Both the position numbers and the translations under genes were made by a program. 64,000 nucleotides of DNA from Prochlorococcus sp. AG-409-P01 (GTDB lineage: Bacteria > Cyanobacteriota > Cyanobacteriia > PCC-6307 > Cyanobiaceae): positions 1-64,000 of the forward strand of contig QCKM01000001.1 of assembly GCA_003215335.1 (NCBI GenBank). The letters are read 5' to 3'. Below, one piece after another: positions 1 through 15,411 of the stretch (the stretch's first letter is position 1; the number at the start of each line of letters is the position of its first letter). A model generated the notes under the pieces. It saw only the letters and a program-made list of their open reading frames with translations, ran no database searches and was not told the origin of the DNA.

Positions 1-34
1 ACCAGAAGAATCAAAGCCTCCACATTATTGAAGT

Positions 35-427: not shown

Positions 428-1705
428 ATGAAGAACATCCCTCAAACCTGTCAAAGATGTGGAGCACCAATTCAATGGGCCAAGTCATCCTTAATAACTA
501 AGTGTGAGTTTTGTGGTCAGCCAGTTTCATCAGCTAGTCAATTTTTAGGAACAGGCAAAGGAATCCTTCGCGAAATCAAGATTGCCTTTGAACGTATTCC
601 TTTCCCCTCTAAAGAGAAGATAAATAATCATGGAAGGATTCTTCTTGAAAAGCAGAATATATTGTCTGATAGTCAAGTTGAGTCCCTCGGGAGATATATA
701 ACAAAAGTATTTACTAAAAAAAAGAACATTCTCTTCTTACTTGGGATTCCGATTAGTTTGCTTACTGTAGTTATAATCAATGATCCAGTAAGGAAGGAAA
801 TTGGAAAATTAAAGAAGGATTACAAAACTGAATGTCGTTATAAATCCAGAAATGCGTCAAGCGATTTTATCGCCGAAATGGAATATAAGCAATGCATAAA
901 TAATAAGTTGAATCAAGTAAGAAAAGAAGCAGTGGGAATTATTGAGGCTCGTAAAGATGCAAGCAAAAAAAAGAAATTGGCTGAAATAGAAAGGCTGCGA
1001 AAGTTGAGAGAAAAAGAAAAAAAAGAACTAAAAAGCCTAAAGAAATGGAGAGAAAAGGGAGCTACTGATACTGATATTACCCTATATAAAAACTTTGGAG
1101 TAAGTACAGCATGCGCAGCAACGTCTTACGGAATTGAATTCTCTAAAGTGGTAGGATTAGCTTCTGCTACATACGCTCAAGTGATTAATGGCAGGCATGA
1201 TGGATTTATTCGATCTGCAGGAAAAGAAAAGTTGCTCAATAAACAACTATTCAATGTGGCAGAATCTCTCATTGTTTCTGGAATGATTCGAGTTTGTCCT
1301 GAGAATGTACCGGCCAAAGTTAAAGATAAATTTCAAACCATAAATGCAAGCAATGCAAAACTATGGTTTAATAATCTAAAGCCCATACGAAAAAGAAAGA
1401 AACCAGCCACTGATAAAGATATTTTCCTTTATCGCGCAATAGGTGCTAGTACTGTATGTAACGGACGTAGTTTAGGTATCGATTTCCCTAAAATTACTGC
1501 AATTGCGGCGGCTACATACGCTCAAGTTCTTACAGGTAAACATGATGGCTATGTTGAATCTGTAGGTAAAAATAAATTGACAAATAAACAGATATTTAAT
1601 GGGGCTGAATATCAAATAGTCACAGCAGCTATTCAGTACTGTCCTGAAAATATTCCTCAGGATCTGAAAGATAAAGTTAAAAAAGCAATTCAAAAGAACA
1701 AATGA
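428..1705 (+). CDS. Zinc-ribbon membrane protein with duplicated Cys-pair domain (paralogue 1)
   Basis: Unknown function. Residues 1-30 hold a zinc ribbon with Cys8, Cys11, Cys26 and Cys29. A linker follows with the motif LLEKQNILSDSQV near 72-84, then Lys-Lys-Lys and one membrane helix at about 99-119. The lysines in front of the helix suggest a cytoplasmic N-terminus and an exported C-terminus. A charged coiled coil (about 165-210) leads to two copies of a roughly 93-residue domain at 212-304 and 327-418. Both copies share a TYAQV motif followed by a (R/K)HDG motif, and each has one early and one late Cys, compatible with a disulphide. The N-terminal module recurs in the genes at 6770, 9671, 10601 and 11970. 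The ATG directly abuts the nuclease stop, suggesting co-transcription. Confidence 0.8.
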   Translation: MKNIPQTCQRCGAPIQWAKSSLITKCEFCGQPVSSASQFLGTGKGILREIKIAFERIPFPSKEKINNHGRILLEKQNILSDSQVESLGRYITKVFTKKKNILFLLGIPISLLTVVIINDPVRKEIGKLKKDYKTECRYKSRNASSDFIAEMEYKQCINNKLNQVRKEAVGIIEARKDASKKKKLAEIERLRKLREKEKKELKSLKKWREKGATDTDITLYKNFGVSTACAATSYGIEFSKVVGLASATYAQVINGRHDGFIRSAGKEKLLNKQLFNVAESLIVSGMIRVCPENVPAKVKDKFQTINASNAKLWFNNLKPIRKRKKPATDKDIFLYRAIGASTVCNGRSLGIDFPKITAIAAATYAQVLTGKHDGYVESVGKNKLTNKQIFNGAEYQIVTAAIQYCPENIPQDLKDKVKKAIQKNK

Positions 1706-1759
1706 AATACGGATTGCAAACATGCCTCGATTTCCTTGCCCATGCACCTCTGATGCAAT

Positions 1760-1954
1760 ATGAGTGGTATGTCGGACTCAGATAAAACACCTTCAAGAAA
1801 GGACTACACGGATGTCAGAGTTAGGCTTCCAAACCGCATGCTTTATAAGATTGAAGAGCTCCGCAAGGAATGGGGGCTACAGTCCAGAGGTGATGTCGTA
1901 GTAAGGCTTTTCGAGGAAATATTGTCAGATGATAAAGACAATCTAGAGAGTTAA
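1760..1954 (+). CDS. Small ribbon-helix-helix DNA-binding protein
   Basis: A 64-residue protein whose central part reads as a beta strand (DVRVRLPNRM) followed by two helices, the layout of Arc/CopG/MetJ-like ribbon-helix-helix regulators. Such proteins bind DNA as dimers and often control plasmid, phage or toxin-antitoxin operons. It lies 80 bases before the helicase gene, so it may regulate the element's replication gene. No partner toxin is recognisable next to it. A second in-frame ATG at 1769 is an alternative start. Family call is from pattern only. Confidence 0.6.
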   Translation: MSGMSDSDKTPSRKDYTDVRVRLPNRMLYKIEELRKEWGLQSRGDVVVRLFEEILSDDKDNLES

Positions 1955-2035
1955 CGCCGAATCTAGGCTTCAGTATTTCTACCCCCTGGCAAGCTCCAAG
2001 TCTTCTGGTTTAGATGATGGTCCACATCAAAATCA

Positions 2036-2962
2036 ATGCCCAAAAAGAAGAAGAAGAGGAAGCAACTCGAGCTCAAAGGAACTGAACAACTCAAGCATTC
2101 AGAAGAGCTGGCACCTGTAGAAAGCATCCTGACCTCAACCTTTAACGAGATCGAAAGTCGATCACTTGGCACTTCTGTTGCAGGAATTCCCGTCAACTTC
2201 TACGACTTCGATGCGCTAACTCAAGGACTCCAACGAGGTTCGTTGGTTGTTCTTGCTGGAAGACCAGCGATGGGTAAAACCTCGTTGGTGACGAACATTG
2301 CCAAAAATGTGGCTCAATTACATGAGCTGCCTGTTTGCTTTTTCAGCTTGGAAATGAGCAAAGAACAAATGACTTATCGCTTTCTTTCTTTAGAAGTTGG
2401 GATTGAATCTGGGCGATTGAGAACTGGACGAATCGCACAAGATGAATGGCCAATCCTTGGACAAGGTATTGAAACTCTTGGCCAACTACCACTGTTTATC
2501 TGCGATAAAAGCTCAATCACAGTCAAAGAGATGTTGGCTAAATGCCAGCAGATCCAGAAGCAAGAAAAGAAATCACTAGGGCTTGTCGTTGTCGACTATG
2601 TCCAATTGATGGAAGGTCCCAATAAAGAATCACGAGATGAAGAACTCTCAAAGATCATCTTGGAGCTCAAAGTGATGGCCAAAACCTTAGATGTCCCTCT
2701 CCTTCTGATGTCTCAACTAAATCGACATGCTGAATATCGAGAGAACAAACGTCCCATGCTCAGTGATCTCAGAGAAACTACATCGCTAGAAAGTCATGCA
2801 GACATCGTGGTGATGATTTATCGAGATGAGTACTACAACCCTGAATCAGACGAACGAGGAATTACAGAACTGATCACTTGTAAGCATCGCAATGGTCCCG
2901 TCGGTACTGTGAAACTTCTCTTTGAACCTCAGTTCACACGTTTTAGAAATTTGGCTGCGTAA
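2036..2962 (+). CDS. DnaB-type replicative helicase core (RecA fold)
   Basis: Hexameric DnaB/gp4-type helicase ATPase domain. Walker A is GRPAMGKTS at 75-83; Walker B is LVVVDYVQLM near 183-192; the SQLNR motif with a following RPMLSDLRE segment fits DnaB motifs 3 and 4, including the arginine region. At 308 residues it has only a short lysine-rich N-terminus where chromosomal DnaB (about 460 residues) has a primase-interacting domain. Core-only DnaB-like helicases are typical of phages and integrative elements, so this is probably the element's own replication protein rather than the host dnaB. Start is the ATG before a run of lysine codons. Confidence 0.85.
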   Translation: MPKKKKKRKQLELKGTEQLKHSEELAPVESILTSTFNEIESRSLGTSVAGIPVNFYDFDALTQGLQRGSLVVLAGRPAMGKTSLVTNIAKNVAQLHELPVCFFSLEMSKEQMTYRFLSLEVGIESGRLRTGRIAQDEWPILGQGIETLGQLPLFICDKSSITVKEMLAKCQQIQKQEKKSLGLVVVDYVQLMEGPNKESRDEELSKIILELKVMAKTLDVPLLLMSQLNRHAEYRENKRPMLSDLRETTSLESHADIVVMIYRDEYYNPESDERGITELITCKHRNGPVGTVKLLFEPQFTRFRNLAA

Positions 2963-2964
2963 TC

Positions 2965-3171
2965 ATGATTGATTCATACACCACACATATCGTTCCTTTA
3001 TTTGATCCAAAGAAGGAAGAAAAAGCAGAGAAAGATCAACAGAAAGTTGATCTATTTCCTATTAATCTAAACTCTGTTTCAAAGTCTGATTCATCAGATG
3101 GAAACTGGGAGCCACAAGATTCCTGTGGAGGACATCAATGGAATGCAGCTATTAATAAGTGGGTGATCTAA
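2965..3171 (+). CDS. Small hypothetical protein after helicase
   Basis: A 68-residue protein starting two bases after the helicase stop, so probably translated from the same transcript. It is acidic and lysine-rich in the middle, with a Trp-Glu-Pro segment and a C-terminal part around residues 50-66 that looks folded. No family is recognised. The next small ORF (GTG at 3159) overlaps its end. Confidence 0.5.
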   Translation: MIDSYTTHIVPLFDPKKEEKAEKDQQKVDLFPINLNSVSKSDSSDGNWEPQDSCGGHQWNAAINKWVI

Positions 3172-3311
3172 TTAAATATAGAACTCTTACTCTAGGTTTC
3201 GGTACTGCCACTGCTTTTGGCTTATCTCTGCTGAAGGTATATAAACCAATTGTTATTGGATCAACAGCTGCTGTCATATGTCCATCCCACGTCTTACTTC
3301 TTGGCTTGTAA
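3159..3311 (+). CDS. Small hydrophobic protein, copy 1
   Basis: A 50-codon reading frame with a GTG start overlapping the previous gene. It encodes two hydrophobic stretches, TLGFGTATAFGLSLL and PIVIGSTAAVI, linked by a basic turn. A related segment occurs at 3556-3704, and that similarity is the main reason to believe it is or was coding. It could be a small membrane protein such as a holin-like or transport peptide, but nothing identifies a function. The last residues run into the following decayed region. Confidence 0.4.
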   Translation: MGDLIKYRTLTLGFGTATAFGLSLLKVYKPIVIGSTAAVICPSHVLLLGL

Positions 3312-3345
3312 TGCCAAGAGAGACGAAGACTCGTTCAACAAGACA

Positions 3346-3556
3346 ATGAATTTCGATGAGTACCTGGTTCCCTACGACTGGGATAGTGATTGGATCGAGA
3401 GGAAGGCCGATGAGATGGTTGCGTTGATGGAACCAGCATCAGATCCCAGAACCGAATGAATGCTGCAAGAACTGTGCCTATTCAGAGCAGTATGCAAAGG
3501 CAGTGCATCAAGAAGAAATCAAGCAAGGTCAAAGTTTGCAAGGGACATTGTTCTAA
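3346..3556 (+). pseudogene. Frameshifted small Cys-containing gene
   Basis: The frame starting with MNFDEYLVPYDWDSDW stops at 3459. A second frame, open from about 3428 to the TAA at 3554-3556, continues with PEPNECCKNCAYSEQYAK. Removing one G near 3429-3430 would join them into one protein of about 69 residues with a CCKNC cluster close to its end. Such a Cys-rich tail resembles the end of some PD-(D/E)XK-type nucleases, but that is a weak guess. I read it as a single-base frameshift; a sequencing error would give the same picture. Confidence 0.45.
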
Positions 3557-3704
3557 TGAAGCCCCTAGGGAATGCCCTCACCTTTGGGCTTGGTGCTGCC
3601 ACTGCTGCTGGCTTGTCTCTAATAAAGCAGCGAGATCAGTCGTTATTAGTTCTGCTGTCGTTGTAGTGGGCTCAGGTTTAATTTTCCTCAAAGAAGAGGA
3701 TTGA
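3556..3704 (+). pseudogene. Small hydrophobic protein, copy 2, frameshifted
   Basis: The ATG overlaps the preceding TAA (TAATG). The first frame gives MKPLGNALTFGLGAATAAGLSLI, matching the first hydrophobic stretch of the protein at 3159. The second stretch, SVVISSAVVVVGSGLIFL followed by KEED, lies in another frame ending at 3704 and matches the second stretch of copy 1 better than the continuation of the first frame, which stops at 3666. This points to a one-base shift near 3618-3625. Duplication followed by decay is the simplest reading. Confidence 0.4.
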
Positions 3705-3776
3705 TCATCTTTGTTCTGTTTCTTGAGATTGCATTTAAGAAAGTTGTGGGATAATGGTCTAAAAGAAAAGACCATC

Positions 3777-4997
3777 TTGAGAAAAGAAATAACTAGAAAG
3801 ACTTCATTAGCCTTACTTACAAGTCTTTATTGCCTGCTGCCAGCACCAAGTCTTGCTAACCCAAGCGAAGCATATAAAGAAAAGTCTGATTGTATTGATC
3901 GCCCAGATTTTGTAACTCCTAAGAATAAAACTTTTAAATACTGCATCAAATCAAATGGGATGATTAATAAGGTTAATGAGCAAGGAGAACTTGTTCAAGA
4001 GAAAGGGCAATTGAATAAGGCAATAGAAGACAGAGTCAAGAAAGGATGGGGACGGAGTTCGATCAGTCTCTATGAATACAAAATTGAGGAAGATGAGCTA
4101 GTTCAATACACATGCAAAGCTAAAAAGGTTGATTCCGAATATCAATGTGATGGCACAGGTGAAAGACTATTAAAAGGTGTTAGGCCAGATGGTTACTATT
4201 TGAAAGCAGGTTTGAAAAATATTGAGGATGAGAATTGGCAAGATGCAATAGAGAACTTCACTTCTGAAATTGAATTAACAAAAAACAAAGATGCTTATTA
4301 CCAACGTGCCTTTGCAAAATATATGATTCAAGACTATTTAGGTGCAGTTAAAGATTCCAATATCAAGCTAAAGGCAGATAAAAATAATATTCAGGCATTG
4401 AATCTGAGCAGTATGGCTAAGTATGAGATCAACGACTATAAAGGTGCTATTGACGACTTAAACAAACTCATAGTCTTATGGGAAAAACTCAATGAAGAAG
4501 AGAGAGAAGAACTTAATCTAAAAGAAATCAATCCAAACTTTGATAAATTTTATTTTAGAAGGGCTCTATCTAAAAGCAAAAATGGTGATAACAAAGGAGC
4601 CACGAAAGACTTGGCAAAGGCTATAGAAATAGATCCACTCAATGGTCAAGCATATTTTCAAAAAGGATTAGAAAAGTTTTGGGATGATCGAGATGCCGCA
4701 TGTATAGATATTCTTAAAGGTATATCACTTGGAGCAGAAGACACAAGTAATCTTCTTATCAAAGAAAAAGCTAATACTGATTCCTTCCTCGATGAGCTTT
4801 TTGATGAGGAGACAAGCCTAGTGGCTGCATGCAAAGGGACTGATTATAAGGAGATAGAAAAGAACAAGGAGAATTATGAGTTCGAGAAGTTCACTGAAAA
4901 AGCTTCTGAATTACTCCGTAAATACTTTGTATTGATTCCAATTTTCCTTGTAGTTGTTCTATCTCTAGTGATGAAATATTCAAATAAAGATGAATAA
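3777..4997 (+). CDS. Exported TPR protein with C-terminal membrane helix
   Basis: The TTG at 3777 is preferred because it gives a clean signal peptide (a basic start, then SLALLTSLYCLLPAPSLA); the longer frame from 3711 would bury it behind 22 unlikely residues. After an N-terminal part with four cysteines there are TPR-like helical pairs (NWQDAIENFTSEIEL, DYLGAVKDSNIKLKADKNN, DYKGAIDDLNKLI, DNKGATKDLAKAIEIDP), a form used for protein-protein contact. A hydrophobic helix close to the C-terminus (about 382-400 of this form) should anchor it in the membrane with a short basic tail. Function unknown. Gene composition is A+T-rich like its neighbours. Confidence 0.65.
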   Translation: MRKEITRKTSLALLTSLYCLLPAPSLANPSEAYKEKSDCIDRPDFVTPKNKTFKYCIKSNGMINKVNEQGELVQEKGQLNKAIEDRVKKGWGRSSISLYEYKIEEDELVQYTCKAKKVDSEYQCDGTGERLLKGVRPDGYYLKAGLKNIEDENWQDAIENFTSEIELTKNKDAYYQRAFAKYMIQDYLGAVKDSNIKLKADKNNIQALNLSSMAKYEINDYKGAIDDLNKLIVLWEKLNEEEREELNLKEINPNFDKFYFRRALSKSKNGDNKGATKDLAKAIEIDPLNGQAYFQKGLEKFWDDRDAACIDILKGISLGAEDTSNLLIKEKANTDSFLDELFDEETSLVAACKGTDYKEIEKNKENYEFEKFTEKASELLRKYFVLIPIFLVVVLSLVMKYSNKDE

Positions 4998-5083
4998 CTA
5001 GGGATTAATTAGTATAGGAATTGTTGTGCAGGCATAGATCAATGCTTTTGTTCATATAGAATGCAAGAATTCGTGCTTTACCA

Positions 5084-6052
5084 TTGACAGTAGCAACCAT
5101 AGAAAGCGTCTCTGGCAAGGATTACTTGGTATGGAAACATCCCAAACGAGAGATAGCCATTGGTTCCCAAGTCCTTGTCAATGAAAGCGAAGAGGCATTA
5201 CTATTTGAAAATGGACAACTTTTACACATCCTTAAAGCTGGACGACATTTAATCGAATCAGGAAATATCCCAGGTCTAGATGGTGTGATTAGACGATCAT
5301 TAGGAAATAACTCTCCGATAAAGATTGATATTTGGTTCGTTAGTAAGACCTCATCAACTGACTACAAATGGGGTGTTCAACTACAAGTTAAAGATACAAC
5401 ACATCAACTCATTGTTCCTGTCGGATCTTATGGCTCAATGTTGTTGAGGATTGATGATCCTGCCTCTTTAGTCCTACAGGTTGTCGGCAAGAAGATGTCA
5501 ATGAATAAAACAGAACTAAAAGAATTTCTGATTCCTAATATCGAGAGAAGTTTGAAAGACTATATCGCCTATAAAATCAAAAAAGGGTCACTCGATATTT
5601 TCTCGATCGAATCAATTTTGGTTGAAGCATCTGCCGATACGAAAAGGTCTATTGATAGAACCTTCGAAAGGTTTGGCTTAAAGCTGATGGATTTCTATAT
5701 CCAAGGCATTGAAGTCATCGGAGATAATCCCGAATACAAGAAAATCAAAGAAAGCCTTGCTGATGCAGCCAGTCTCCGCATACGTGCAAAAGCAGCCTCA
5801 GAGACTCAAGGTTTTTACCAACAAGAACGCACTCTGGATGCTCTTAATAAAGCGGCCGCAAAAGACACCGGTGTTGCTGGTCAATTGCTATCGAAGGGGT
5901 TGGGAGGTATGAATTTCGGCGGAACAGGTCAAAATGAATCGAATGGAGACCTGAAAAAGAAACTCTCATCATTAAAGGACCTCCTTGACTCCGGGCTGAT
6001 CTCCGAAAGTGACTATAACGAGAGGAAAAAGAAAATCTTGGATGACCTATAA
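5084..6052 (+). CDS. Band-7/SPFH-like protein with SHOCT tail
   Basis: Resembles the Band_7_1 (YdjI-type) SPFH branch: a beta-rich start with SEEALLFENGQLLHILKAGRH, then FVSKTSSTDYKWG and a VGSYGSMLLRIDDPASL stretch, followed by a helical region. The last 30 residues (LSSLKDLLDSGLISESDYNERK) are a SHOCT domain, a short module common at protein ends and thought to mediate oligomerisation. A Gly-rich linker separates the two. The start is TTG because no ATG or GTG lies in frame upstream. It stands 31 bases before a membrane coiled-coil gene and a zinc-ribbon/TPR gene, suggesting an operon for a membrane-bound scaffold. Biochemical role unknown. Confidence 0.7.
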   Translation: MTVATIESVSGKDYLVWKHPKREIAIGSQVLVNESEEALLFENGQLLHILKAGRHLIESGNIPGLDGVIRRSLGNNSPIKIDIWFVSKTSSTDYKWGVQLQVKDTTHQLIVPVGSYGSMLLRIDDPASLVLQVVGKKMSMNKTELKEFLIPNIERSLKDYIAYKIKKGSLDIFSIESILVEASADTKRSIDRTFERFGLKLMDFYIQGIEVIGDNPEYKKIKESLADAASLRIRAKAASETQGFYQQERTLDALNKAAAKDTGVAGQLLSKGLGGMNFGGTGQNESNGDLKKKLSSLKDLLDSGLISESDYNERKKKILDDL

Positions 6053-6083
6053 ACAGAATGACTAGAAATAACGCCATAAGGAT

Positions 6084-6761
6084 ATGAACATCAAGAGCGC
6101 CCTGCCGATTCTCTGGCTCCCATTAATAGGAGTCTGGACATTCCTTTTTGCTGTTCAGAGCAATTCGGTTTCTACAGATCTAGAAACTGTAGTCCCATTT
6201 ATTTCTTATTTGGTTGTTTCTTTTCTGCTGGTCCTGCAACTTCAGCTAGTTCTTGGCAATAAGAGGGAGAGTGGAATAGTTAAATTTGGAACTGCAAATG
6301 TATTGTCCATTTGTTTGTTCATTTCTAGCCTTTCGGTCTTATTGAATCTTCTGAAGACTATCGAAAATGAAGCCTCAATTTTCCTTATAGTAACCCCTCT
6401 AATCGCAAATACCATCATTGCTGAGATATTTTCTGCTTCTAATAAAGCATTAGTAGATAAGAAAAAGGCATGGACTGAGACCAACAGAAAATTAGAAGAA
6501 CGTCAAAAGAAAGTCTCAGAAGAAAATGCTCAATTCAGAAATAAGTCCATAGAGTACCGAGAAGCCTGGAAAAGTTATCTACAGCAAGCATCAATCGACT
6601 ATTTAGATAACAGTGAAATCATTGGTGAAATAACAAGACTTAAAGAGATTGTAGAGTTTAGCTCTTATTTTAGAAGTCAACTATCAGAAGAGACATTATC
6701 AAGGCTTAAAAATAATTCGGACCCGTCTCAGGTTTTAGTAATTCTGAAAGACGTTAAATAG
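6084..6761 (+). CDS. Membrane protein with cytoplasmic coiled coil
   Basis: No family recognised. The first half has about four hydrophobic segments (roughly 7-25, 38-58, 70-90 and 97-113). From about 118 to 165 it is highly charged and heptad-like (NRKLEERQKKVSEENAQFRN), so a coiled coil, followed by a helical tail. It sits 31 bases after the Band-7/SHOCT gene and 8 bases before the zinc-ribbon/TPR gene, which makes co-expression and possibly one complex likely. Confidence 0.55.
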   Translation: MNIKSALPILWLPLIGVWTFLFAVQSNSVSTDLETVVPFISYLVVSFLLVLQLQLVLGNKRESGIVKFGTANVLSICLFISSLSVLLNLLKTIENEASIFLIVTPLIANTIIAEIFSASNKALVDKKKAWTETNRKLEERQKKVSEENAQFRNKSIEYREAWKSYLQQASIDYLDNSEIIGEITRLKEIVEFSSYFRSQLSEETLSRLKNNSDPSQVLVILKDVK

Positions 6762-6769
6762 TTAATAAT

Positions 6770-8833
6770 ATGCCAAGAGTTGGAAACAAATGTAGTTTTT
6801 GCGGTGCTCCTCTTCGTAGAGGGAGTCGTGGAAAGTTTGGGGAATGTGAATTTTGCGGTCAAGATCCTAAGTTCAGTACACTCTCTGTAATCAAAACGAA
6901 ATCCTCAATCGGGAAGAAGATTGTTGAACCGCTTAAAAGAACTAAAGATTTGATTGAAAGAAGCAACTCAAATTTTCAGAAGTTTTCTAAGGAATCAATT
7001 AAAAGGATTAAAGATAGAAGCAATATAATAATAGAAAAGAATAAAACGTTCTTTGCTGAAGGTCAAAGAATATCAAGACATTACTTTAATGCCTCTAAAG
7101 GCTTAGTTGAAAGAAAGCTCTTAAATACACAGAGAAAGAAAAGGATTGTCTTTTGGTATTTCCCTATTGGACTAGTTAGTGTATCTGCTATTTATTCATT
7201 AGCTCTCTATTTGCCTAGACAGAGAGAATATGCTTATGGGAATTATGTTGATGCGGCGATTAAAAATTGTGGTTTTTCCAATTACATAAAAGATCACACT
7301 AAAGCAATAGAGGATTACACCAAGGCAATTAATCTATTTCCAAATAAGATACAAGCTTATCGCCTTCGTGCCGAATGTGAGTCCAAAGCCGGGAATTTTA
7401 TCAAAGCAATTAATGACTATAGTAAGGCGATAGAAATAATGCCAAACAATGAGTATTTATACGTAAATCGTGCATCTGTTAAAGAAAAAAATGGTGATCT
7501 AAAAGAAGCTATTGCTGATTACAGTAAAGCATTAGAAATTCAGCCTAATTACTGGAAATATTACAAGCTTCGTGCATCTATCAAAGAAAAGAATAATGAT
7601 CTAAAAGGTGCTATTGAGGATTACAGTTTTGCAATTGTAAGAAAACCAAGACAGTGGGATTTGTATAAGCTTCGTGCATCTATTAAAGAAAGAAAAGGTG
7701 ATCTACAAGGAGCAATTGATGACTACAATAAGTTGATAAAAGGTAGTGCCGAAAAAGCTAAAGCATATAATTCAAGAGGAGAGTTATACTATAAGCTGAA
7801 TAAAAAAGATAAATATTGTGCTGATGTAGAAAATGCTCTTTTACTGGGTCTAAATAGAAAGGAGGTCAGGATGGGAAATACCTATCAGAATCTATGTATT
7901 GTTAATTCCTTAAAGAATACACCAGGTTTAATTGCACCAGTAGATGTTAATATAGACAATGAAAAAGTTAAATTTTATCGAGAAAAAGTTTCAAGAACCT
8001 ATTTAAACTGCAAAGAGCGCCTAAGATTTTCCAATCTTTTGTTGCAATTACAAAAAACCGGAGAAGACTATTATAATCGCGCCAAAGCAAAACAAGAATG
8101 TGGAATGCATAAGGCTGCTATATTAGATTTTACTGAAGCTTTAAAATATAATAAGAGAGCACTATCTTATAAGTTCCGTGCTTCAAGTAGGATTGAATTA
8201 AAAGACTATCAAGGCGCCATAGATGATATAACAAAAGCTATCAATTTAGATACAAACGCAGATTATCTTTATATAGATAGAGCAGAGGCAAAAGAAAGGA
8301 TTAAAGATTACAAAAGTGCTATAGTTGATTTAAGTAAAGCGATAGAAATAAGGCCAATTTTTGAGAGTTATAACCTCCGAGCAAATCTCAAAGAAAAGGC
8401 TGGTGATCGCAAAGGGGCATTTGATGACTATATTTTAGGAATTAATATAAAGGAAAACTATAAAGGACTTTATTCATTAGGAAGATTCTATTTAGATGAA
8501 GGGGATTATGTAACGGCAATAAAAAAATTTAATTCGGCTCAATCAAGTGTATACAACAATAAAAAGTATTGGTATAATAAATACAATAGAGTATTTGGCT
8601 ATAAGCAATTGTTCACAGATATAGGGGCAGAATTATATAATGAAACTTATCTTCAGATAGGGCTAGCAAAATATCTTCTATCTGATTACCGCGATGCCTG
8701 TCTCAAATGGCGCATCTATATTAATACGTCCAAGGACAGAAAAAATCTCTTACCTATATCTGGAATCAATCCAATACAAGTAAGCAATAAGAGCTACAAT
8801 TTATATCATTTATATAATGACCATTGCAAGTAA
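6770..8833 (+). CDS. Zinc-ribbon membrane protein with TPR repeats (paralogue 2)
   Basis: A 687-residue protein of unknown function. The N-terminus has the same zinc ribbon as its paralogues (Cys8, Cys11, Cys26, Cys29), then a basic helical region and one membrane helix at about 126-147. The rest is mostly TPRs: at least eight repeats with the pattern A(I/V)xDYxKAIxxxP, in two blocks (about 165-345 and 440-640) split by a region with several cysteines. The linker motif LLEKQNILSD of the other paralogues is not clear here, so it is the most divergent member. With the lysine-rich side before the helix, the TPRs should lie outside the cytoplasm. Very A+T-rich codon use. Confidence 0.75.
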   Translation: MPRVGNKCSFCGAPLRRGSRGKFGECEFCGQDPKFSTLSVIKTKSSIGKKIVEPLKRTKDLIERSNSNFQKFSKESIKRIKDRSNIIIEKNKTFFAEGQRISRHYFNASKGLVERKLLNTQRKKRIVFWYFPIGLVSVSAIYSLALYLPRQREYAYGNYVDAAIKNCGFSNYIKDHTKAIEDYTKAINLFPNKIQAYRLRAECESKAGNFIKAINDYSKAIEIMPNNEYLYVNRASVKEKNGDLKEAIADYSKALEIQPNYWKYYKLRASIKEKNNDLKGAIEDYSFAIVRKPRQWDLYKLRASIKERKGDLQGAIDDYNKLIKGSAEKAKAYNSRGELYYKLNKKDKYCADVENALLLGLNRKEVRMGNTYQNLCIVNSLKNTPGLIAPVDVNIDNEKVKFYREKVSRTYLNCKERLRFSNLLLQLQKTGEDYYNRAKAKQECGMHKAAILDFTEALKYNKRALSYKFRASSRIELKDYQGAIDDITKAINLDTNADYLYIDRAEAKERIKDYKSAIVDLSKAIEIRPIFESYNLRANLKEKAGDRKGAFDDYILGINIKENYKGLYSLGRFYLDEGDYVTAIKKFNSAQSSVYNNKKYWYNKYNRVFGYKQLFTDIGAELYNETYLQIGLAKYLLSDYRDACLKWRIYINTSKDRKNLLPISGINPIQVSNKSYNLYHLYNDHCK

Positions 8834-8865
8834 TTGATCCATTTTTTTATATACTTTAGATTTCT

Positions 8866-9510
8866 TTATTTCTGCAAACAGAACATTTTATAGTAAGCAT
8901 CTTTTACTTTTCCTTTAGTGCCACCAAATCTCAGGCCAGAACGTAAAGCCAAAGCTCTATTTTCTCCTGCACCATGATGAGAGTGACTATCAAACTCTTT
9001 ATCACCAAGTAATGCTGCAGCCACAATCATATTTTTAGTATCTTCCTTATCAAAAGAGATGTTCGGAATACTGGCCAATATCACCCCTGCAAAACAATCC
9101 GCCTGAAGCTCAATCCTCATCGTGTTTCTTTGAGCCTTAGCAATTAGCTGTGACTTCGTAAATTGGATGTGATGGGCATATTCATGAGCAACAACAAATG
9201 CAACTGCCGCATCACCAACTTCTGAAAGTTGTTTCATAAAGTCCTGTTCTAAACAGATCAAATTCGATCTGGAATCGTAATAAGTGTTGTCGCACCATGT
9301 CCATTGAACTGGGTCTGCACCTGCTTTTTTGCCAATGGTTTTAGACGCACCAACTAAAACGACGTTGATAAGTGATTCCATATCTTCAGTCCAATCCAAA
9401 GCTGCCTTTGCAGGGATAGGAAGCAGCGATAGCAAGAGCGTTAAGGCTGAAGCCGCGAAAAGATTTTTCTTTATAGAACTGGCCAATGAGGTGGCTACAA
9501 GATGACTCAT
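8866..9510 (-). CDS. Secreted HExxH zinc metallopeptidase
   Basis: Looks like a short member of the putative neutral zinc metallopeptidase (YpfJ-like) group. Residues 1-37 make a signal peptide ending in PAKA. The zinc site is VVAHEYAHHIQ with His109, Glu110 and His113, and IELQADCF supplies Glu134 and Asp138, the usual downstream metal-ligand region. It is 214 residues long, against nearly 300 for typical relatives, the missing part being N-terminal. It is the only minus-strand gene in this part of the island and converges with the TPR gene. Substrate unknown; it may process other exported proteins encoded nearby. Confidence 0.75.
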   Translation of the reverse strand: MSHLVATSLASSIKKNLFAASALTLLLSLLPIPAKAALDWTEDMESLINVVLVGASKTIGKKAGADPVQWTWCDNTYYDSRSNLICLEQDFMKQLSEVGDAAVAFVVAHEYAHHIQFTKSQLIAKAQRNTMRIELQADCFAGVILASIPNISFDKEDTKNMIVAAALLGDKEFDSHSHHGAGENRALALRSGLRFGGTKGKVKDAYYKMFCLQK

Positions 9511-9569
9511 CCTATATTCGCAGTCCTATCTAGCAATTCCTTTTAATTATGGCCGTACCTTCTAAAGGT

Positions 9570-9656
9570 ATTAACTACTTGCAAAGGGAGAGCGACCCTG
9601 ATGTTATTGTGTCAAATATCCTAGTGATACCAATCGATTTACCTTATTTTTGCTAA
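9570..9656 (+). pseudogene. EVE-domain gene 5' remnant, copy A
   Basis: Conceptual reading gives INYLQRESDPDV, a worn form of the EVE-domain opening YWLMKSEPDV, then a tail VIPIDLPYFC and a stop at 9654. The same stretch recurs at 10491 and 11858, each time just before a zinc-ribbon gene. EVE proteins bind modified bases, but nothing beyond the first dozen codons remains. It is part of a leader of about 100 bases repeated with the downstream gene. Confidence 0.5.
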
Positions 9657-9670
9657 TTTCTCTTTGATTT

Positions 9671-10384
9671 ATGAGCATAGATCCTGATAAATGTAGTCGG
9701 TGTGGTGCTCCTATTAATTGGAGTAAAATATCACTAATAACTAGATGTGATTTTTGTGGCAAGCCAACATCTTCTACAAGTAGATACCTGGCAGGAATTA
9801 CAAATAATTTTTTTAGAATAAATCATTCCATATTAAATATTCTTTCTCCAATCAATAATAAACTCAAAAGCCAAGGTGCAATAATACTTGATAGGCAGAA
9901 TATCTTATCTGATACTCAAGTAAGGTTTATTTCTGATAAACTTCGAGACTTTTTGGGCAAGAAATCAAATATATTTTTGTTAGTTGGGATGCCAATAGTT
10001 GTGATCATCCTTACTATTGCAAATGATCCAATAAGACCTTACAAAAAAGAAGTTGAAAAACTTTGTCGATCATACTCTTCCATGGAAGATTATGAATTTA
10101 GTGGGAAGCGAGGATACAAAAAATGCAGTAAGAAATGGGAGAAAATTGTCAGGGATAAAATCAAAGAAGCAAATGATAAAGATAAAGCCATTTATTACCC
10201 TACATTTGGTGTATGGATCAAGCCAGATCGCTTGCGAACAAAGAAAAGTAATATTTATGACAATCCGTATGTCTATTCCAACCGCAGTCAGGCAGAAGCC
10301 GAGGCTGAAAGGCTTGGATGTAAAGGTGCACACAAGATGGGGAAGATGTGGCTGCCCTGTTCCCCCTTCAAAAGAGATAAATGA
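9671..10384 (+). CDS. Zinc-ribbon membrane protein with DUF3721 tail (paralogue 3)
   Basis: 237 residues. Zinc ribbon with Cys8, Cys11, Cys26 and Cys29; linker motif ILDRQNILSDTQV near 72-84; Lys-Lys then a membrane helix at about 100-117; then a charged region with two cysteines. The C-terminus (about 205-232) carries AEAERLGCKGAHKMGKMW followed by LPCS, which fits DUF3721, a short Cys-pair domain found in cyanobacterial exported proteins. Only the N-terminal half matches the other paralogues, so the C-terminus seems to have been exchanged. Start ATG lies 14 bases after the end of EVE remnant A. Function unknown. Confidence 0.75.
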   Translation: MSIDPDKCSRCGAPINWSKISLITRCDFCGKPTSSTSRYLAGITNNFFRINHSILNILSPINNKLKSQGAIILDRQNILSDTQVRFISDKLRDFLGKKSNIFLLVGMPIVVIILTIANDPIRPYKKEVEKLCRSYSSMEDYEFSGKRGYKKCSKKWEKIVRDKIKEANDKDKAIYYPTFGVWIKPDRLRTKKSNIYDNPYVYSNRSQAEAEAERLGCKGAHKMGKMWLPCSPFKRDK

Positions 10385-10490
10385 ATCACAAGGCTTCTCC
10401 TTAGGGATAATTGAAACATGCAAAAACCTTGAGACCGAAGGTTTACCCAAACTTTACCCAAACCGCCCATTTTCACCCAAACCCCTTGAT

Positions 10491-10586
10491 ATGACTGAAA
10501 TTAACTACTGGCTAATGGAGAGCGACCCTGATGTTAACGCGTCAAATATTCTAGTTATACCAATGGATCTACCTCTTTTCTGCTGA
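10491..10586 (+). pseudogene. EVE-domain gene 5' remnant, copy B
   Basis: A 31-codon frame from an ATG: it begins MTEINYWLMESDPDV, nearly identical to the conserved start of EVE-domain proteins, then switches to an unrelated tail ending in a stop at 10584. It is directly preceded by short repeats of the form TTTACCCAAAC (twice) and CACCCAAAC between about 10442 and 10483. The zinc-ribbon gene starts 14 bases later. It may still be translated as a leader peptide, but it is best read as a fragment. Confidence 0.6.
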
Positions 10587-10600
10587 TTTCTCTTCGTTTT

Positions 10601-11734
10601 ATGAGTATAGATTCTAATAAATGTAGTCAATGTGGTGCTCCTATTAACTGGGAGAAAGCATCACTAATAGTTAAATGTGAATTTTGCGGTAAGCCGAACT
10701 CTCTTTCAAGCAAATACCTGTTAAGAGGCCAAAATAGCCTTCTTAGAGTAAATGGGTTCTTATCAAAAGTAGCTTCTCCCTTCAGCAAGCAAATCAAACA
10801 GAAGGGAGCAGTTCTTCTTGAAAAGCAGAATTTACTGAGTAATGCGCAAGTTGATTGGGTTACTACAAAACTCAAAGCTTTAATGAGTAAAAAGAGAAAT
10901 GTTGTTTTATTATTTACTATTCCGATAAGTTTAATTAGCATTTTTAAAATTTATCATCGAGTAAATTATCCGGAAACTGCCAAACCATACTATCCAAGAT
11001 TTCCTTATAGCATGGCAAGTCCTGAAGAGACAGGTGATTTTGTTCTTTATGGAAGTAACAGCACTAAAGAAGCTATAGCAAGAACAAAAGTTTGGTGCAA
11101 AGTATACAGGAAAAGTGTACCTTTAATTGATTGCTTGGCACAGAGAAAGATTGAAAAATACTACTTTGATATTGGCTCTGAAGTAAGAGATGGAGATTGG
11201 TTGATATATAAACAAGCTCAGTCACTAGGTGATAATGAACCCTCAGTAGAACGACATGACTCAGATTACGAAGAGAGTTGGAATGACCTTGCAATCAATT
11301 GCAAGAAAGGATTAATAGCCTATTACCAGCCTGGAGGTATTTCTCTTTTTAATGAAAGATACTTAAAAGGGTTTTACCCCGGTTCGGATAAAAATAAAAT
11401 TAAACGTAAATATCAGAGGGATGAACCGCTTCTTGTTTATAGAAAAATGGGAAAGCTTTGGTGGAAGTCTTATGAAACATTACACACGGACCTTGAAAGT
11501 GGAAAATATCTAGCGACGCAAAAAAAAGAGCTCGAAAGAAGAGAAGCATCCCTCTCAAAATTTTTAGCACAGCAAAAAACTATAAAGCAAGAACATATGA
11601 AGTCTCTTCTTGAAATCATAAACACTGTTCGTCGTGGCGTGAAATCTTCAAAGGAACAACTTCTTTTAGAGCGAGCACGAAGAAAATCAGCAGCTGTTGA
11701 TTTCAACAACTTGTTGAAATTAGTATGCAAGTGA
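10601..11734 (+). CDS. Zinc-ribbon membrane protein with long unknown tail (paralogue 4)
   Basis: 377 residues. Zinc ribbon Cys8, Cys11, Cys26, Cys29; linker motif LLEKQNLLSNAQV; Lys-Lys-Arg then a membrane helix at about 100-117. The exported-side part is unlike the other paralogues: a region of about 180 residues with scattered cysteines and aromatic residues, then a coiled-coil-like segment (about 295-365, rich in Leu, Glu and Lys). The first 30 residues are nearly the same as in the gene at 9671, so these two are the closest pair. Unknown function. Confidence 0.75.
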   Translation: MSIDSNKCSQCGAPINWEKASLIVKCEFCGKPNSLSSKYLLRGQNSLLRVNGFLSKVASPFSKQIKQKGAVLLEKQNLLSNAQVDWVTTKLKALMSKKRNVVLLFTIPISLISIFKIYHRVNYPETAKPYYPRFPYSMASPEETGDFVLYGSNSTKEAIARTKVWCKVYRKSVPLIDCLAQRKIEKYYFDIGSEVRDGDWLIYKQAQSLGDNEPSVERHDSDYEESWNDLAINCKKGLIAYYQPGGISLFNERYLKGFYPGSDKNKIKRKYQRDEPLLVYRKMGKLWWKSYETLHTDLESGKYLATQKKELERREASLSKFLAQQKTIKQEHMKSLLEIINTVRRGVKSSKEQLLLERARRKSAAVDFNNLLKLVCK

Positions 11735-11857
11735 CCATTTGGATTGTTGTAGCTTTCAACCGAAAAGGCGAGATAATGGAAACAAGAGAACGAACCTTGC
11801 ATAGCAGCATCTGTTCACACTTTGTTCACACCACGTAATTCGCCCAAATCCATTGAT

Positions 11858-11953
11858 ATGACTGACATTTCCTACTGGCTAATGAAAAGCTAGCCATGCC
11901 TGAATGCGTCAAAAATTCTAGTTATACCAATCGATTGCCCTCTTTTTTGCTGA
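11858..11953 (+). pseudogene. EVE-domain gene 5' remnant, copy C
   Basis: The ATG opens MTDISYWLMKS and is cut by TAG at 11891. YWLMKS is the best match of the three copies to the EVE signature. Beyond the stop the DNA still aligns with copies A and B (GCGTCAAA, TTCTAGTTATACCAAT, TTTGCTGATTTCTCTT) up to the start of the next zinc-ribbon gene at 11970. This copy shows that the shared leader includes the coding start of an EVE gene. Confidence 0.6.
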
Positions 11954-11969
11954 TTTCTCTTTAGATTAG

Positions 11970-12791
11970 ATGCGAAAGATTCCTAAAAAATGTAATCAAT
12001 GTGGAGCACCAATTACCTGGGATGAAGTCTCTTCTTCTATTACATGTGAGTTCTGTGGCGGTAAGACTTATATCAGAAGCAAGTTTGTCTTCATTGAAAA
12101 AGTTAAAGGTAGTACTTATAAACGTTTAGCCCCAGTAAGTAAAAGTCTCAACAATGCTGGAAAAGTATTATTAAGCAAGCAGAATATCTTGTCAGACAAT
12201 CAAATAGATCATATTAGCAATAAAACAAAACAGCTCTTTAAAAATAGCTACTTTAAAGTCCTCCTTTTCGCTGCACCTATTGCTGTAATAACTCATTTAA
12301 TAGTTAATTCAATAATTAATGATCCAATTAAAAAATATGAAAAACTTATAACCTCTAATTGTGAATACACTCTAGTTGGTCTAATTCCAGAATATGTTGC
12401 AAAACAAAGATTTAAAAAGTGCTTAAATGACCTAAGAGAAGTTGTGAGGAAGCAGATTGAAGTCGCTAATGAAGAAGGTACTGTTGTCAATGCATATGAG
12501 GATCATTACAACCTTACCTATCCTCCATTTAGAAGTTGGGGCATCTCGCCAAGTCAATGGAGCCTGCCTAAAAACGTTAAAAAATTAAAAAAGGATAGGA
12601 GATTTGAAGAATTAGAAGTTCTACTGGAAGTACGCTGCAATCTAGAAATTGGCGGTTTCAAAAGTTCTTCTAGTGAATGCACACTATACAGGGAAGGTGG
12701 GACAGAGGAGGTAATAAAAGAACATAGAGGAGGCATCCCATTATTGGACTTGATGAGGCAAGATAATATTCCTAAAAAGAAAAAAGAATAG
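11970..12791 (+). CDS. Zinc-ribbon membrane protein (paralogue 5)
   Basis: 273 residues. Zinc ribbon with the same four positions (Cys8, Cys11, Cys26, Cys29), linker motif LLSKQNILSDNQI, and a membrane helix at about 96-115 followed by INDPIKKYEK. The INDP(I/V) segment after the helix is shared with the proteins at 428 and 9671, as is a following part with two cysteines (SNCEY and FKKCLND). The last 90 residues match no domain I know. Start ATG lies 16 bases after the common leader. Unknown function. Confidence 0.75.
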   Translation: MRKIPKKCNQCGAPITWDEVSSSITCEFCGGKTYIRSKFVFIEKVKGSTYKRLAPVSKSLNNAGKVLLSKQNILSDNQIDHISNKTKQLFKNSYFKVLLFAAPIAVITHLIVNSIINDPIKKYEKLITSNCEYTLVGLIPEYVAKQRFKKCLNDLREVVRKQIEVANEEGTVVNAYEDHYNLTYPPFRSWGISPSQWSLPKNVKKLKKDRRFEELEVLLEVRCNLEIGGFKSSSSECTLYREGGTEEVIKEHRGGIPLLDLMRQDNIPKKKKE

Positions 12792-12824
12792 CAATCATGC
12801 TAAACATTTTTACTATCAAAAATA

Positions 12825-13124
12825 ATGCTTTGCACTCCAACTGAAGCTGCTGACTATCTCAACTACAAGAGTCCAGCAACGTTATATAGGCTCATTAGAG
12901 ATGGGCTGTTGGATGACTACATCGAGTATGTAGAAGGCGTCCTGTATTTGGAGATGGGAACTAGAAGTAAACGTCCAACACTGGCAAAACGAGTTAGATC
13001 ACTCATTAATTTCAAAGGTGAGCATGAAATGTTTATGTTCGACCCAAAAGAAGAGGTTTCACTGCAAAGAGTTCGAGCCAAGTTTGAGCAAACAAGAGCA
13101 GCAAAATTAAGCAGCCATAGTTAA
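12825..13124 (+). CDS. Excisionase-like helix-turn-helix protein
   Basis: The first 35 residues (CTPTEAADYLNYKSPATLYR then LIRDGLLDD) have the layout of the winged helix-turn-helix of Xis/AlpA/MerR-like proteins. In mobile elements such proteins steer the integrase toward excision or regulate transcription. It lies about 650 bases from the recombinase gene, facing it, which fits that role. The C-terminal half is basic with no recognised fold. An excisionase role is inference. Confidence 0.55.
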   Translation: MLCTPTEAADYLNYKSPATLYRLIRDGLLDDYIEYVEGVLYLEMGTRSKRPTLAKRVRSLINFKGEHEMFMFDPKEEVSLQRVRAKFEQTRAAKLSSHS

Positions 13125-13273
13125 TCCCTAATCACTCTTAAAACCGCTTAAATACTGACGTTTTGCAGACGTGACAATACCAATCCATTCTCATTATTTG
13201 AAACTTTGTCCCTAGCGAAATACCGAGCCCTCGGATGACCCACAGCTATTGCTGTCCCTAGGACCCAGGCATT

Positions 13274-13298
13274 AAAAAGGGGAGCTAGTTGCCCCCTT
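13274..13298 (-). terminator. Rho-independent terminator, minus strand
   Basis: A hairpin with stem AAGGGG/CCCCTT, followed on the minus strand by a run of Ts. It lies just after the end of the small-protein pair at 13311-13603 and could end the recombinase transcript. The 180 bases between 13125 and here show no gene. Confidence 0.55.
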
Positions 13299-13310
13299 GA
13301 AAGTCGACTG

Positions 13311-13439
13311 TCAATCAAATACAGAGTAGCTACTGCTTTGCTCTTGCTTATCTGCTGGAGGCTGTGTAACGGTGAGGTAAATACACAAGATTGTGAGCGG
13401 ACAGAAAACGATACGAGCGATAGGCCAGAAGTAGCGCAT
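13311..13439 (-). CDS. Small single-helix membrane protein
   Basis: A 42-residue reading frame whose ATG overlaps the stop of the upstream 54-residue gene (TAATG), a sign of translational coupling. It has a short basic start, one hydrophobic helix (about residues 5-24) and a polar tail. No family recognised. It belongs to the minus-strand group that starts with the recombinase. Confidence 0.45.
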   Translation of the reverse strand: MRYFWPIARIVFCPLTILCIYLTVTQPPADKQEQSSSYSVFD

Positions 13440-13603
13440 TAGTCCTCCCTAGGTATTTCCAAATTTCTGTTCTCCTTGTCCTTATTGATCTCTTCCTTGA
13501 CCTTTTTGTAGTAGGCGATCTCTTCCGGATCATCTGAACCAAGTCCATATCCCATCGTTGCAGCGAGGTAAATCTTGTGTTGTCTATGAGAGGTAAGAGT
13601 CAT
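13439..13603 (-). CDS. Small charged hypothetical protein
   Basis: A 54-residue reading frame (MTLTSHRQHKIYLAATMGYG at its start, then DDPEEIAYYKKVKEEINKDK). The strong Glu/Lys pattern and coupling to the next gene support real coding. It may be a helical DNA- or protein-binding accessory of the recombinase, but this is a guess. Confidence 0.45.
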   Translation of the reverse strand: MTLTSHRQHKIYLAATMGYGLGSDDPEEIAYYKKVKEEINKDKENRNLEIPRED

Positions 13604-13620
13604 TAACAACAAGTCTTTTT

Positions 13621-13719
13621 CTATTTATTAGTAGGTCTAACGATTATTTCTCTAATTTTTTGAAACTGCTTTTTCCAAAAGCTAATAACAGAATCAGGGA
13701 TGGGTTTATTGATAGGCAT
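13621..13719 (-). CDS. Possible 32-residue basic peptide
   Basis: Reading frame MPINKPIPDSVISFWKKQFQ then KIREIIVRPTNK, with one amphipathic basic helix. It lies between the recombinase stop and the small-protein pair in the same orientation. Too short to judge firmly. Confidence 0.3.
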   Translation of the reverse strand: MPINKPIPDSVISFWKKQFQKIREIIVRPTNK

Positions 13720-13783
13720 GATTTGAGTTTATTGAGGTAGTAGTAATCGTTTCATATTTTCATCATGCCGCTTTTTCAGTTGC

Positions 13784-15040
13784 TTAGTTCAGTTGATCGA
13801 AAGCATCAAACATTGTCTTGTCGGTGGCAGTCCTATAAGCCCGTGAATGTGCTGATTCGCTGTGGCGCATAGCCCTACAAATCTGGGCATATTCCATTCC
13901 ATACCGATGACACCTAGAGGAGTAGGAATCTCTAAAGGTGTATGGCCTTAGCCAAAGCCCCTTTTTTTCATATTTCTGCTTGAGCCTTATCCACTCAGGC
14001 TGCACCTGTAAAAAATTCAAAACAAAGCGACCATTCAACTTTCTAAATTCTCCGTTCCTTCCTATTGGCAACTGAAGCGACCCATCTTCTAGTTCTTCAG
14101 GAATATCCCATTGCACTTTTTGACCATTTGAACTTTCTAGTGGTACAGGAACCAACCATCCTGCATGTGATTTGTTGGGTCCTGATACTTTGCTGTAAGA
14201 GCACCAAACCCTTAGTACTCCATACTCATCAATCCTGGGCGTTAGATATTGCAGCTCTATAGGCCGCATTCCAAAAAGAGCAAGGGTCCTAATCACGTTT
14301 GCCCAGGCATGGTTTCGTTCATTAATGGCATCAATGAAATCCAATAACTCTTGATCTTCTAAAACAGCTTTAGTTCTCTTCTCAGTGGTTCTGCCTCTTA
14401 GTTCCTTGATGCTTGTTTGGGTTACCATCCAACTAGCAGGCATGTTGTGACGAACAACAGCATGTTCTGTGAAATTCTTGAGTGCAAGACAACAGGCAGC
14501 TCTGCTAGAAGGCTTTCCTTCCCAGCTCTTTAAACACTGCTCCAGCAATTCATGACCACTGGTGACTGAGCCACTCTTGAGGATTCTTGTGCCTTCTTCT
14601 ATATAAGGTTGCCAGTTGTCTTTCCAGGTCGACTCTTTGATTTGATTAACCCCTGTAGTCCGCAGATCGAACAGACTCTGAGCTATTGCGTCCCATCCCT
14701 TTGCAACCTTGTGGGATAGCTTGTCGCTTAACCCTAAGGCTTCTTTTATTGCCAGTTTTAAAGATTTTTCGCCATTATGTACTGGATCATAAATACGGTT
14801 TATTAAGAGCAGTGCATCCCCTTGATTAGCGGCATTCCAACCGAAAGGAAGGTTGGCAGTCTGTGTAACTAAGCCTTTACCTCTAATTCGCAAAAGCATG
14901 CGGCCATTGTTATTGGTGATATTCCATCCCCTCCTAAGGGTCTTCACTGAACTTTGGAAACCGTCTTCCCAACTTTTTGCCATAGATATATTTATGCCAA
15001 ATTTTATACCAAATATACTTCGAGAGAGTTTCACAGACAC
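13784..15040 (-). CDS. Tyrosine recombinase (integrase)
   Basis: A 418-residue site-specific recombinase. The C-terminal catalytic domain shows GMRPIEL (first Arg), YTFRDSYSSRCHR at 367-379 (box II; the usual first His is Tyr367, with Arg370), MRHSESAHSRAYR with His393, and the nucleophile Tyr402 nine residues after it. The N-terminal half contains a SAM-like core-binding region. It is probably the enzyme that integrates the island to its left. Its gene points into the island, as expected for an integrase near one end. No tRNA or duplicated attachment sequence is apparent beside it. Confidence 0.85.
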   Translation of the reverse strand: MSVKLSRSIFGIKFGINISMAKSWEDGFQSSVKTLRRGWNITNNNGRMLLRIRGKGLVTQTANLPFGWNAANQGDALLLINRIYDPVHNGEKSLKLAIKEALGLSDKLSHKVAKGWDAIAQSLFDLRTTGVNQIKESTWKDNWQPYIEEGTRILKSGSVTSGHELLEQCLKSWEGKPSSRAACCLALKNFTEHAVVRHNMPASWMVTQTSIKELRGRTTEKRTKAVLEDQELLDFIDAINERNHAWANVIRTLALFGMRPIELQYLTPRIDEYGVLRVWCSYSKVSGPNKSHAGWLVPVPLESSNGQKVQWDIPEELEDGSLQLPIGRNGEFRKLNGRFVLNFLQVQPEWIRLKQKYEKKGLWLRPYTFRDSYSSRCHRYGMEYAQICRAMRHSESAHSRAYRTATDKTMFDAFDQLN

Positions 15041-15411
15041 TCTAGAGCTTTCAAAAAACCTTTCCAGTAACTAACTTTTGATTCACACTCAAGTTGCTCG
15101 CTGCTAGAAGAGTACTTATATCACCCAAATGATCCACGGGGGCTGCAAGGCCCCCTCTTTAATTGCAGAGTAAGGGATCTAACAAAGATCATGACTTCTG
15201 AGGAATACAGCAGGCGTATTTGCACAAAGATGTTTGATCTCGTTCTTCTTTGAAATGCCAAGGTGATCACAGGGAAGAAAAGGAGGCCTAGTTATCTCTA
15301 TGCCCCTGCTTAGTTTCTTGGCAAGGATGGTGTTGATTTAAGGTTTTATTCCGATGCTTTTTTGTGTGGAAGGAACTATCTGTAGAGATATAGAAAGCAG
15401 CGAGGTTTCTT
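15041..15411 (+). other. Intergenic region upstream of recombinase
   Basis: No convincing gene. It contains the hairpin listed separately and, from about 15191, a run of broken reading frames (MTSEEYSRRICTKMFDLVLL, then stop-interrupted pieces) that may be a worn remnant. If the element's attachment site is near the recombinase start, it would lie here, but I cannot see a tRNA end. Confidence 0.3.
15138..15160 (+). terminator. Hairpin with T-rich tail
   Basis: Six-base-pair stem GGGGGC/GCCCCC with a six-base loop, followed by TCTTT. It resembles a rho-independent terminator, although no plus-strand gene ends here, so it may be left from a lost gene. Confidence 0.5.

Follow-up and report, generated by a model that had tools for sequence, protein, structure and literature searches.

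The window analysed here, 64,000 nt from the genome of Prochlorococcus sp. AG-409-P01 (contig QCKM01000001.1, positions 1 to 64,000), raises the question of why three genes for zinc-ribbon proteins are each preceded by a copy of the same leader, and why this leader carries the beginning of a different gene, that of an EVE-domain protein. A repeat search of the window delimits three copies of 123 nt each (A, 9542-9664; B, 10472-10594; C, 11839-11961), the outer two being 74% and 81% identical to the middle one. Just beyond each copy lies the ATG of a zinc-ribbon ORF (9671, 10601 and 11970), so the threefold repeat reported in the preliminary description of this locus is borne out. The three genes, all on the forward strand, span 9671-10384 (237 aa, with a C-terminal DUF3721), 10601-11734 (377 aa) and 11970-12791 (273 aa). 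The zinc-ribbon proteins encoded at 428-1705, 6770-8833 and 9671-12791 have a common N-terminal part, comprising the ribbon and a probable membrane helix, and differing C-terminal parts.

Anatomy of the leaders

Read from the ATG inside each copy, leaders A, B and C encode MAVPSKGINYLQRESDPDV, MTEINYWLMESDPDV and MTDISYWLMKS*, respectively. The only EVE gene of this genome is located on another contig than the window (C2:218021-218458, minus strand; PF01878, E 8.5e-53), and its product starts with MAQQEPSYWLMKSEPDV. The encoded peptides resemble this intact start, as the preliminary description had proposed, and the likeness extends to the DNA: 76 of 97 nt of copy B agree with the promoter region and opening codons of the intact gene, a significant similarity (E 4e-18). 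Because this match starts some 60 bp before the EVE ATG, inside a tandem repeat (ACYCAAACTTTACYCAAACC), the repeated leader is larger than earlier described.

Each leader is a junction that joins the right end of one cassette, a core (TACTGGCTAATGAA) and the left end of the next cassette. A full site consists of two identical tandem arms, some 40-60 bp of further DNA, an ATG followed by a few codons that vary, the core, another 45-60 bp or so, and a further pair of tandem units. Its upstream half takes the promoter position of EVE, and its downstream half directly precedes the first cargo gene. In the intact EVE gene, only the left half of this arrangement is present, and the gene's own coding sequence follows. 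In the window, all on the forward strand, site B is the clearest: its upstream half, the right end of cassette 1 (10440-10505), contains arm units ACCCAAAC at 10445 and 10456, with an 11-bp period, and an ATG at 10491-10493 followed by codons for MTEIN; the core TACTGGCTAATGGA (YWLM) occupies 10506-10519, and the downstream half, the left end of cassette 2 (10520-10600), reaches the zinc-ribbon start. The upstream half of site C, the right end of cassette 2 (11813-11872), carries tandem GTTCACAC units at 11813 and 11824 and an ATG at 11858-11860 (MTDIS); the core TACTGGCTAATGAA itself follows at 11873-11886 and the left end of cassette 3 at 11887-11969. Site A (9542-9664; ATG at 9549-9551) is degenerate, with TACTTGCAAAG in the place of the core (9576-9589) and a single remaining arm unit before the left end of cassette 1. 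A profile of the sites recovers B (E 8e-22) and C (E 2e-17) in the window and misses A; the reversed window yields no match.

The two halves of the window sites behave differently. The upstream halves fall into three classes, with MAVPSKGIN and a decayed CTAGCAA arm in A, ACCCAAAC arms and MTEIN in B, and GTTCACAC arms and MTDIS in C. The after-core halves form one class, which shows no clear tandem arms in the window. A profile built from the three after-core halves detects this left-end type in the EVE islands of other genomes, at sites of L051 (E 8e-19), L047 (2e-16) and L049 (5e-10); the left end of site B also recurs in L056. In other genomes, this class precedes unrelated cargo genes.

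Among 107 sites, perfect tandem units (8 of 8 positions) are present upstream of the core in 51 and downstream in 35, compared with 1-1.6% of random windows, and they are practically confined to a period of 11. The arm unit itself is highly variable (ACCCAAAC, ATCCACAC, ATTCCAAC, ATTCGAAC, TTCTAGCA, GTTCACAC and TACCAGCA are examples). Nevertheless, the left and right arms of the same element resemble each other (mean similarity 0.744 versus 0.614, n = 23; none of 20,000 permutations was as high), although the two ends of several elements carry unlike arms. An inverted repeat resembling TCGCTGAGATCCCTTGGTAT flanks the core, on the left in 61 of 83 remnant sites and, inverted, on the right in 42 of 83; to the right of the core it is found in none of 15 intact EVE genes. 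This repeat is clearer by the motif test than by an ungapped, register-fixed palindrome test, in which the signal is weak (0.33 versus 0.26). The N-termini of intact EVE genes are interchangeable (MAQQEP, MADKNI, MTEET, MASQEP, MTEEN, MTEIN): insertion falls at the coding start and provides a new in-frame N-terminus, as in the elements of dusA and prfC.

The island upstream of the EVE gene

Prochlorococcus-type genomes hold about 100 such sites, almost all of them in one island upstream of EVE and on a single strand; the EVE gene itself is present in 106 of 121 genomes of the family. In the genome under study, the motif occurs more than 10 times within the 36 kb adjoining the EVE gene. The 17 stretches upstream of EVE that were read from Prochlorococcus-like genomes contain as many as eight additional EVE starts, oriented like EVE; one of the stretches, L061, has the EVE start itself only, and L057, a second contig of G039, carries four further starts. 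The two larger, higher-GC relatives that were read (L063 and L064) have no extra starts. The 14-mer core is found in 17 of 22 whole genomes, with every copy within a single island upstream of EVE in nearly all of these; the reversed control pattern is absent from 21 of the 22. The same-strand array has exceptions: the C2 island of the same genome includes an inverted block, G030 has a single copy in the opposite orientation, G051 has two copies that lie far away, one of them next to a DnaB-like gene like that in the window, and G039 has the copies on its second contig mentioned above.

Two sites depart from the usual appearance. A remnant in G065 (C3:11294-11443), which lies upstream of the intact gene at a distance of 4.6 kb, retains the codons of about 50 EVE residues, unlike the usual break directly past the core. 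Upstream of EVE in G003, two cores are separated by 146 bp without cargo (L045, reversed, 14760-14906), and this minimal element has matching TTCTAGCA arms.

Spans between sites range from these 146 bp to about 12.5 kb. By matches to curated families, one 10.8-kb span contains urease alpha and UrtA; in L045 (reversed, 3934-14760), genes for urease and a urea ABC transporter lie in one span between two EVE-type sites. Other site-flanked cargo, likewise assigned by curated families, includes ferredoxin-nitrite reductase NirA (nirA) together with a formate/nitrite transporter (focA; a family match below the subfamily cut-off), and, as a separate group, PstS, ArsJ with its GAPDH, and an ArsR-type regulator with a PtrA-like regulator (a match below the cut-off of that model). 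We infer that these nutrient genes moved as units.

Presence and absence of the cassettes follow the sites closely. When the DNA between two site cores was deleted in silico and the resulting join was sought as contiguous sequence in other genomes, 46 of 169 joins matched another genome across the junction, many of them with only 100-140 bp to the left of it, the length of a right end. Controls shifted by 200 bp gave 0 of 173 and 7 of 169 matches, shifting the right side only gave 2 of 169, and random joins gave 0 of 173. The cassette that abuts EVE in the genome under study is 14.3 kb away from EVE in G039, where the intervening DNA includes an integrase-bearing element. A gradient with the newest cassettes next to EVE is marginal (rho 0.25, p 0.049). 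The EVE cassettes are apparently mobile, as judged by comparison of genome sequences.

The candidate EVE integrase and the probable tmRNA-targeted element

Three large elements encode an integrase of 503-517 residues that belongs to a PHROGs integrase family and starts 97-118 bp after the core. In all 14 examined relatives with at least 48% identity to it, the gene begins 86-122 bp past an EVE core, with perfect arms in 13; this is the case in none of nine more distant relatives (both sets come from named contigs of Prochlorococcus and Synechococcus, which in part represent the same genomes). Wherever a homologue with at least 67% identity shares a contig with EVE, it lies upstream of that gene at a distance of no more than 30 kb. 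The genome under study has no close EVE integrase, and its cassettes may be stranded or reliant on enzymes from elsewhere. No relatives of the EVE integrase were found in phages or viral contigs, and a 20-mer core has no copy in IMG/VR; matches to the 14-mer core there, considered as virus-borne sites, were rejected as chance, given that none of 80 checked has arms.

As a PDB sequence search with the integrase profile produced no match, we turned to fold comparison. The predicted fold resembles Cre, lambda Int and Tn1549 Int (pLDDT 71, pTM 0.46; moderate confidence), and in the predicted structure residues 1-68 have the strand-helix plan of arm-binding domains. Similarity in this N-terminal segment tracks similarity of the arm motif (rho 0.57, p 0.0002), and the rest of the protein does so to a lesser degree (rho 0.25, p 0.035). 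Arm sites around a core, putatively read by the N-terminal domain of the integrase, are thus present in this system. The complete catalytic set of tyrosine integrases is R-K-H-R-H-Y. In the EVE integrases (L055:4744-6255 and relatives), Ser, within TGMSPEE, occupies the usual position of the first catalytic Arg, and the Lys, the second Arg and the Tyr are conserved. A more distant relative, L197, has Arg at that position.

The window also encodes a tyrosine recombinase (13784-15040, minus strand). This candidate for the enzyme of the leaders was rejected because its relatives go with tmRNA 3' ends: the closest ones adjoin, or lie in the vicinity of, a tmRNA gene or a 3' fragment of one. A first scan of the named genomes with this recombinase gave no match. 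The region 1-15154 comprises a gene with a DnaB-type helicase domain (2036-2962, forward strand), which has close homologues in the EVE islands of the same genome and its relatives, genes for TPR and band-7 proteins, an HTH_17/excisionase-like gene that probably belongs to the enclosing element (12825-13124, forward strand; Pfam 1.9e-5, below the cut-off), the recombinase and a forward-strand copy of the tmRNA 3' end (15119-15154; Rfam RF01851, E 0.32). This copy shares 25 of 28 positions with the tmRNA of the same genome and has TATCACCC in common with it. Given the association of the recombinase relatives with tmRNA and the tmRNA 3' copy at the border, the first 15 kb most likely make up the greater part of an element that sits at the tmRNA gene and has been entered by EVE-type cassettes. 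The three cassettes of the window hence lie away from EVE, inside a tmRNA-type element; in the corresponding region of G078 and G011, an EVE-type site adjoins the recombinase. Since the tmRNA gene of this genome is near the end of contig C7, contigs C7 and C1 may join, and gene order makes a join on the tmRNA side of the enclosing element plausible. One recombinase-like gene (L011:12919-13614, corresponding to C2:244918-245613 of the same genome) is truncated and lies immediately inside an EVE-type site; it is related to a G051 recombinase of the type found in the window.

Proposed mechanism, alternatives and known systems

The leaders are very probably attachment-site junctions of integrative elements whose target is the 5' end of the EVE gene, with its conserved YWLMKSEPDV start. 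Site anatomy, genomic distribution, arm pairing, linkage and fold of the integrase, and junction-precise presence and absence are each supported by the sequences. We infer the course of recombination, mobilisation in trans, the restored expression of EVE and the route of the cassettes into the tmRNA element. The circular element would carry attP, in which the core TACTGGCTAATGAA links the right end of the element to the left end, the right end comprising tandem arms, the promoter position, the ATG and the element's own first codons, and the left end the partner of the inverted repeat and the second tandem arms, followed by the integrase or the first cargo gene. A lambda-type tyrosine integrase would bind the arms with its N-terminal domain and recombine the core with the EVE start, so that the right end of the element supplies EVE with a new promoter region and N-terminus, and the old start, once displaced, is left as a remnant at the far end. 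Further rounds beside EVE would produce an array of remnants separating the cassettes. Many cassettes lack an integrase, and enzymes able to recognise their arms would mobilise these in trans. The window leaders would then be junctions between zinc-ribbon cassettes that now reside in a separate element at the tmRNA gene.

The preliminary description proposed that a unit of EVE start and zinc-ribbon gene had been duplicated in tandem. In a fuller form of this reading, an EVE fragment would have fused once with a zinc-ribbon gene and the unit been multiplied by homologous recombination. The paralogy of the three proteins in their N-terminal parts and the likeness of the after-core halves would suit such an origin, but it fits poorly with three upstream classes, differing in arms and N-termini, next to a single downstream class, a combination better explained by separate insertions of related cassettes. 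With the same left-end type before unrelated genes in other genomes and about 100 sites of the same plan, we consider duplication unlikely. The suggestion that the leader serves as homology for recombination was right with respect to recombination and understated its nature, because the core, inverted repeat, 11-bp tandem arms and cognate integrase are, on sequence criteria, the features of a site-specific attachment site.

It is still less probable that the leader functions chiefly as a module of promoter and leader peptide, copied before genes for their expression and recombining incidentally. Such a module would account for the position directly upstream of cargo genes and for the TTATACCAAT-like stretch conserved past the core, but leaves unexplained the confinement to the EVE island, the 11-bp arms matching at both element ends, the junction-precise presence and absence, and the linkage to the integrase. 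Equally improbable is an integron-like system with EVE as an attI-like anchor and attC-like sites that recombine in the form of folded single strands. Array geometry, one-gene cassettes and the imperfect inverted repeat around the core, absent at the intact EVE site, are reminiscent of integrons; however, the integrase is encoded inside the elements rather than beside the anchor gene and has the plan of an arm-binding N-terminal domain whose sequence follows the tandem arms, and the register-fixed palindromy of the sites is weak. We thus favour attachment-site junctions over all three. Beyond these, it is quite possible, if somewhat doubtful, that the EVE start is a general docking platform with the arms as a changeable address code, and that orphan cassettes and operons for urea, nitrite and phosphate/arsenate are traded in trans between the EVE island and tmRNA or tRNA elements.

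Usable nitrogen and phosphorus sources vary among close Prochlorococcus relatives, and the underlying gene movement is only partly understood; EVE islands built of piled-up cassettes hold genes for urea, nitrite, phosphate and arsenic. The sites mark cassette borders, predict junctions to the base and name candidate integrases, and cassette movement thereby becomes testable in culture and countable in metagenomes. The covariation between arm motif and the N-terminus of the integrase provides natural material for studying partner choice of integrases. If the proposed mechanism holds, variation of the EVE N-terminus is explained as well, the gene start coming from the last inserted element.

In the literature searched, we found no description of EVE as an integration target, and the element family, its target and its arm code look new, with tycheposons compared as they are described in PMC10872708. 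According to that description, the tycheposons of Prochlorococcus have tRNA-gene borders, tyrosine recombinases and nutrient-acquisition cargo; they share the host, the enzyme type and the cargo with the EVE elements, whereas the EVE sites lie at the start of a protein-coding gene and have a core and arms unrelated to tRNA. The tmRNA element enclosing the window cassettes is closer to the tycheposon kind, so described, than the EVE sites are. The additive flexible genomic islands of Methylophilaceae, with recurring tRNA-Lys ends (PMC10872708), likewise contain cassettes separated by repeats of one gene's end, but this is a 20-bp tRNA end, and enzyme and arms are unresolved there. In the ssrA islands of Dehalococcoides, tandem islands, some without an integrase, are separated by repeats of the target-gene end, the most recent being next to the target, and accretion has been proposed (PMC3146451). 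These resemble the EVE arrays in their tandem islands between such repeats, but employ a serine recombinase at the 3' end of an RNA gene, with no replacement of promoter or start codon. Lambda-type integration with replacement of the gene start has been demonstrated experimentally for dusA-specific elements and reported for SXT at prfC (PMC8409611). The EVE sites have this anatomy and join it to accretion arrays like those of the ssrA islands; target gene, hosts and enzymes differ from those of the EVE elements, and the dusA and prfC elements are usually single, large and mobilizable, in contrast to EVE arrays of small cassettes with many arm motifs. With lambda and Tn916-type sites, finally, the EVE sites have in common a core and tandem arms read, putatively in the EVE case, by the N-terminal domain of the integrase, but are distinguished by many diverging arm motifs around one invariant core, which is the start of a coding sequence.
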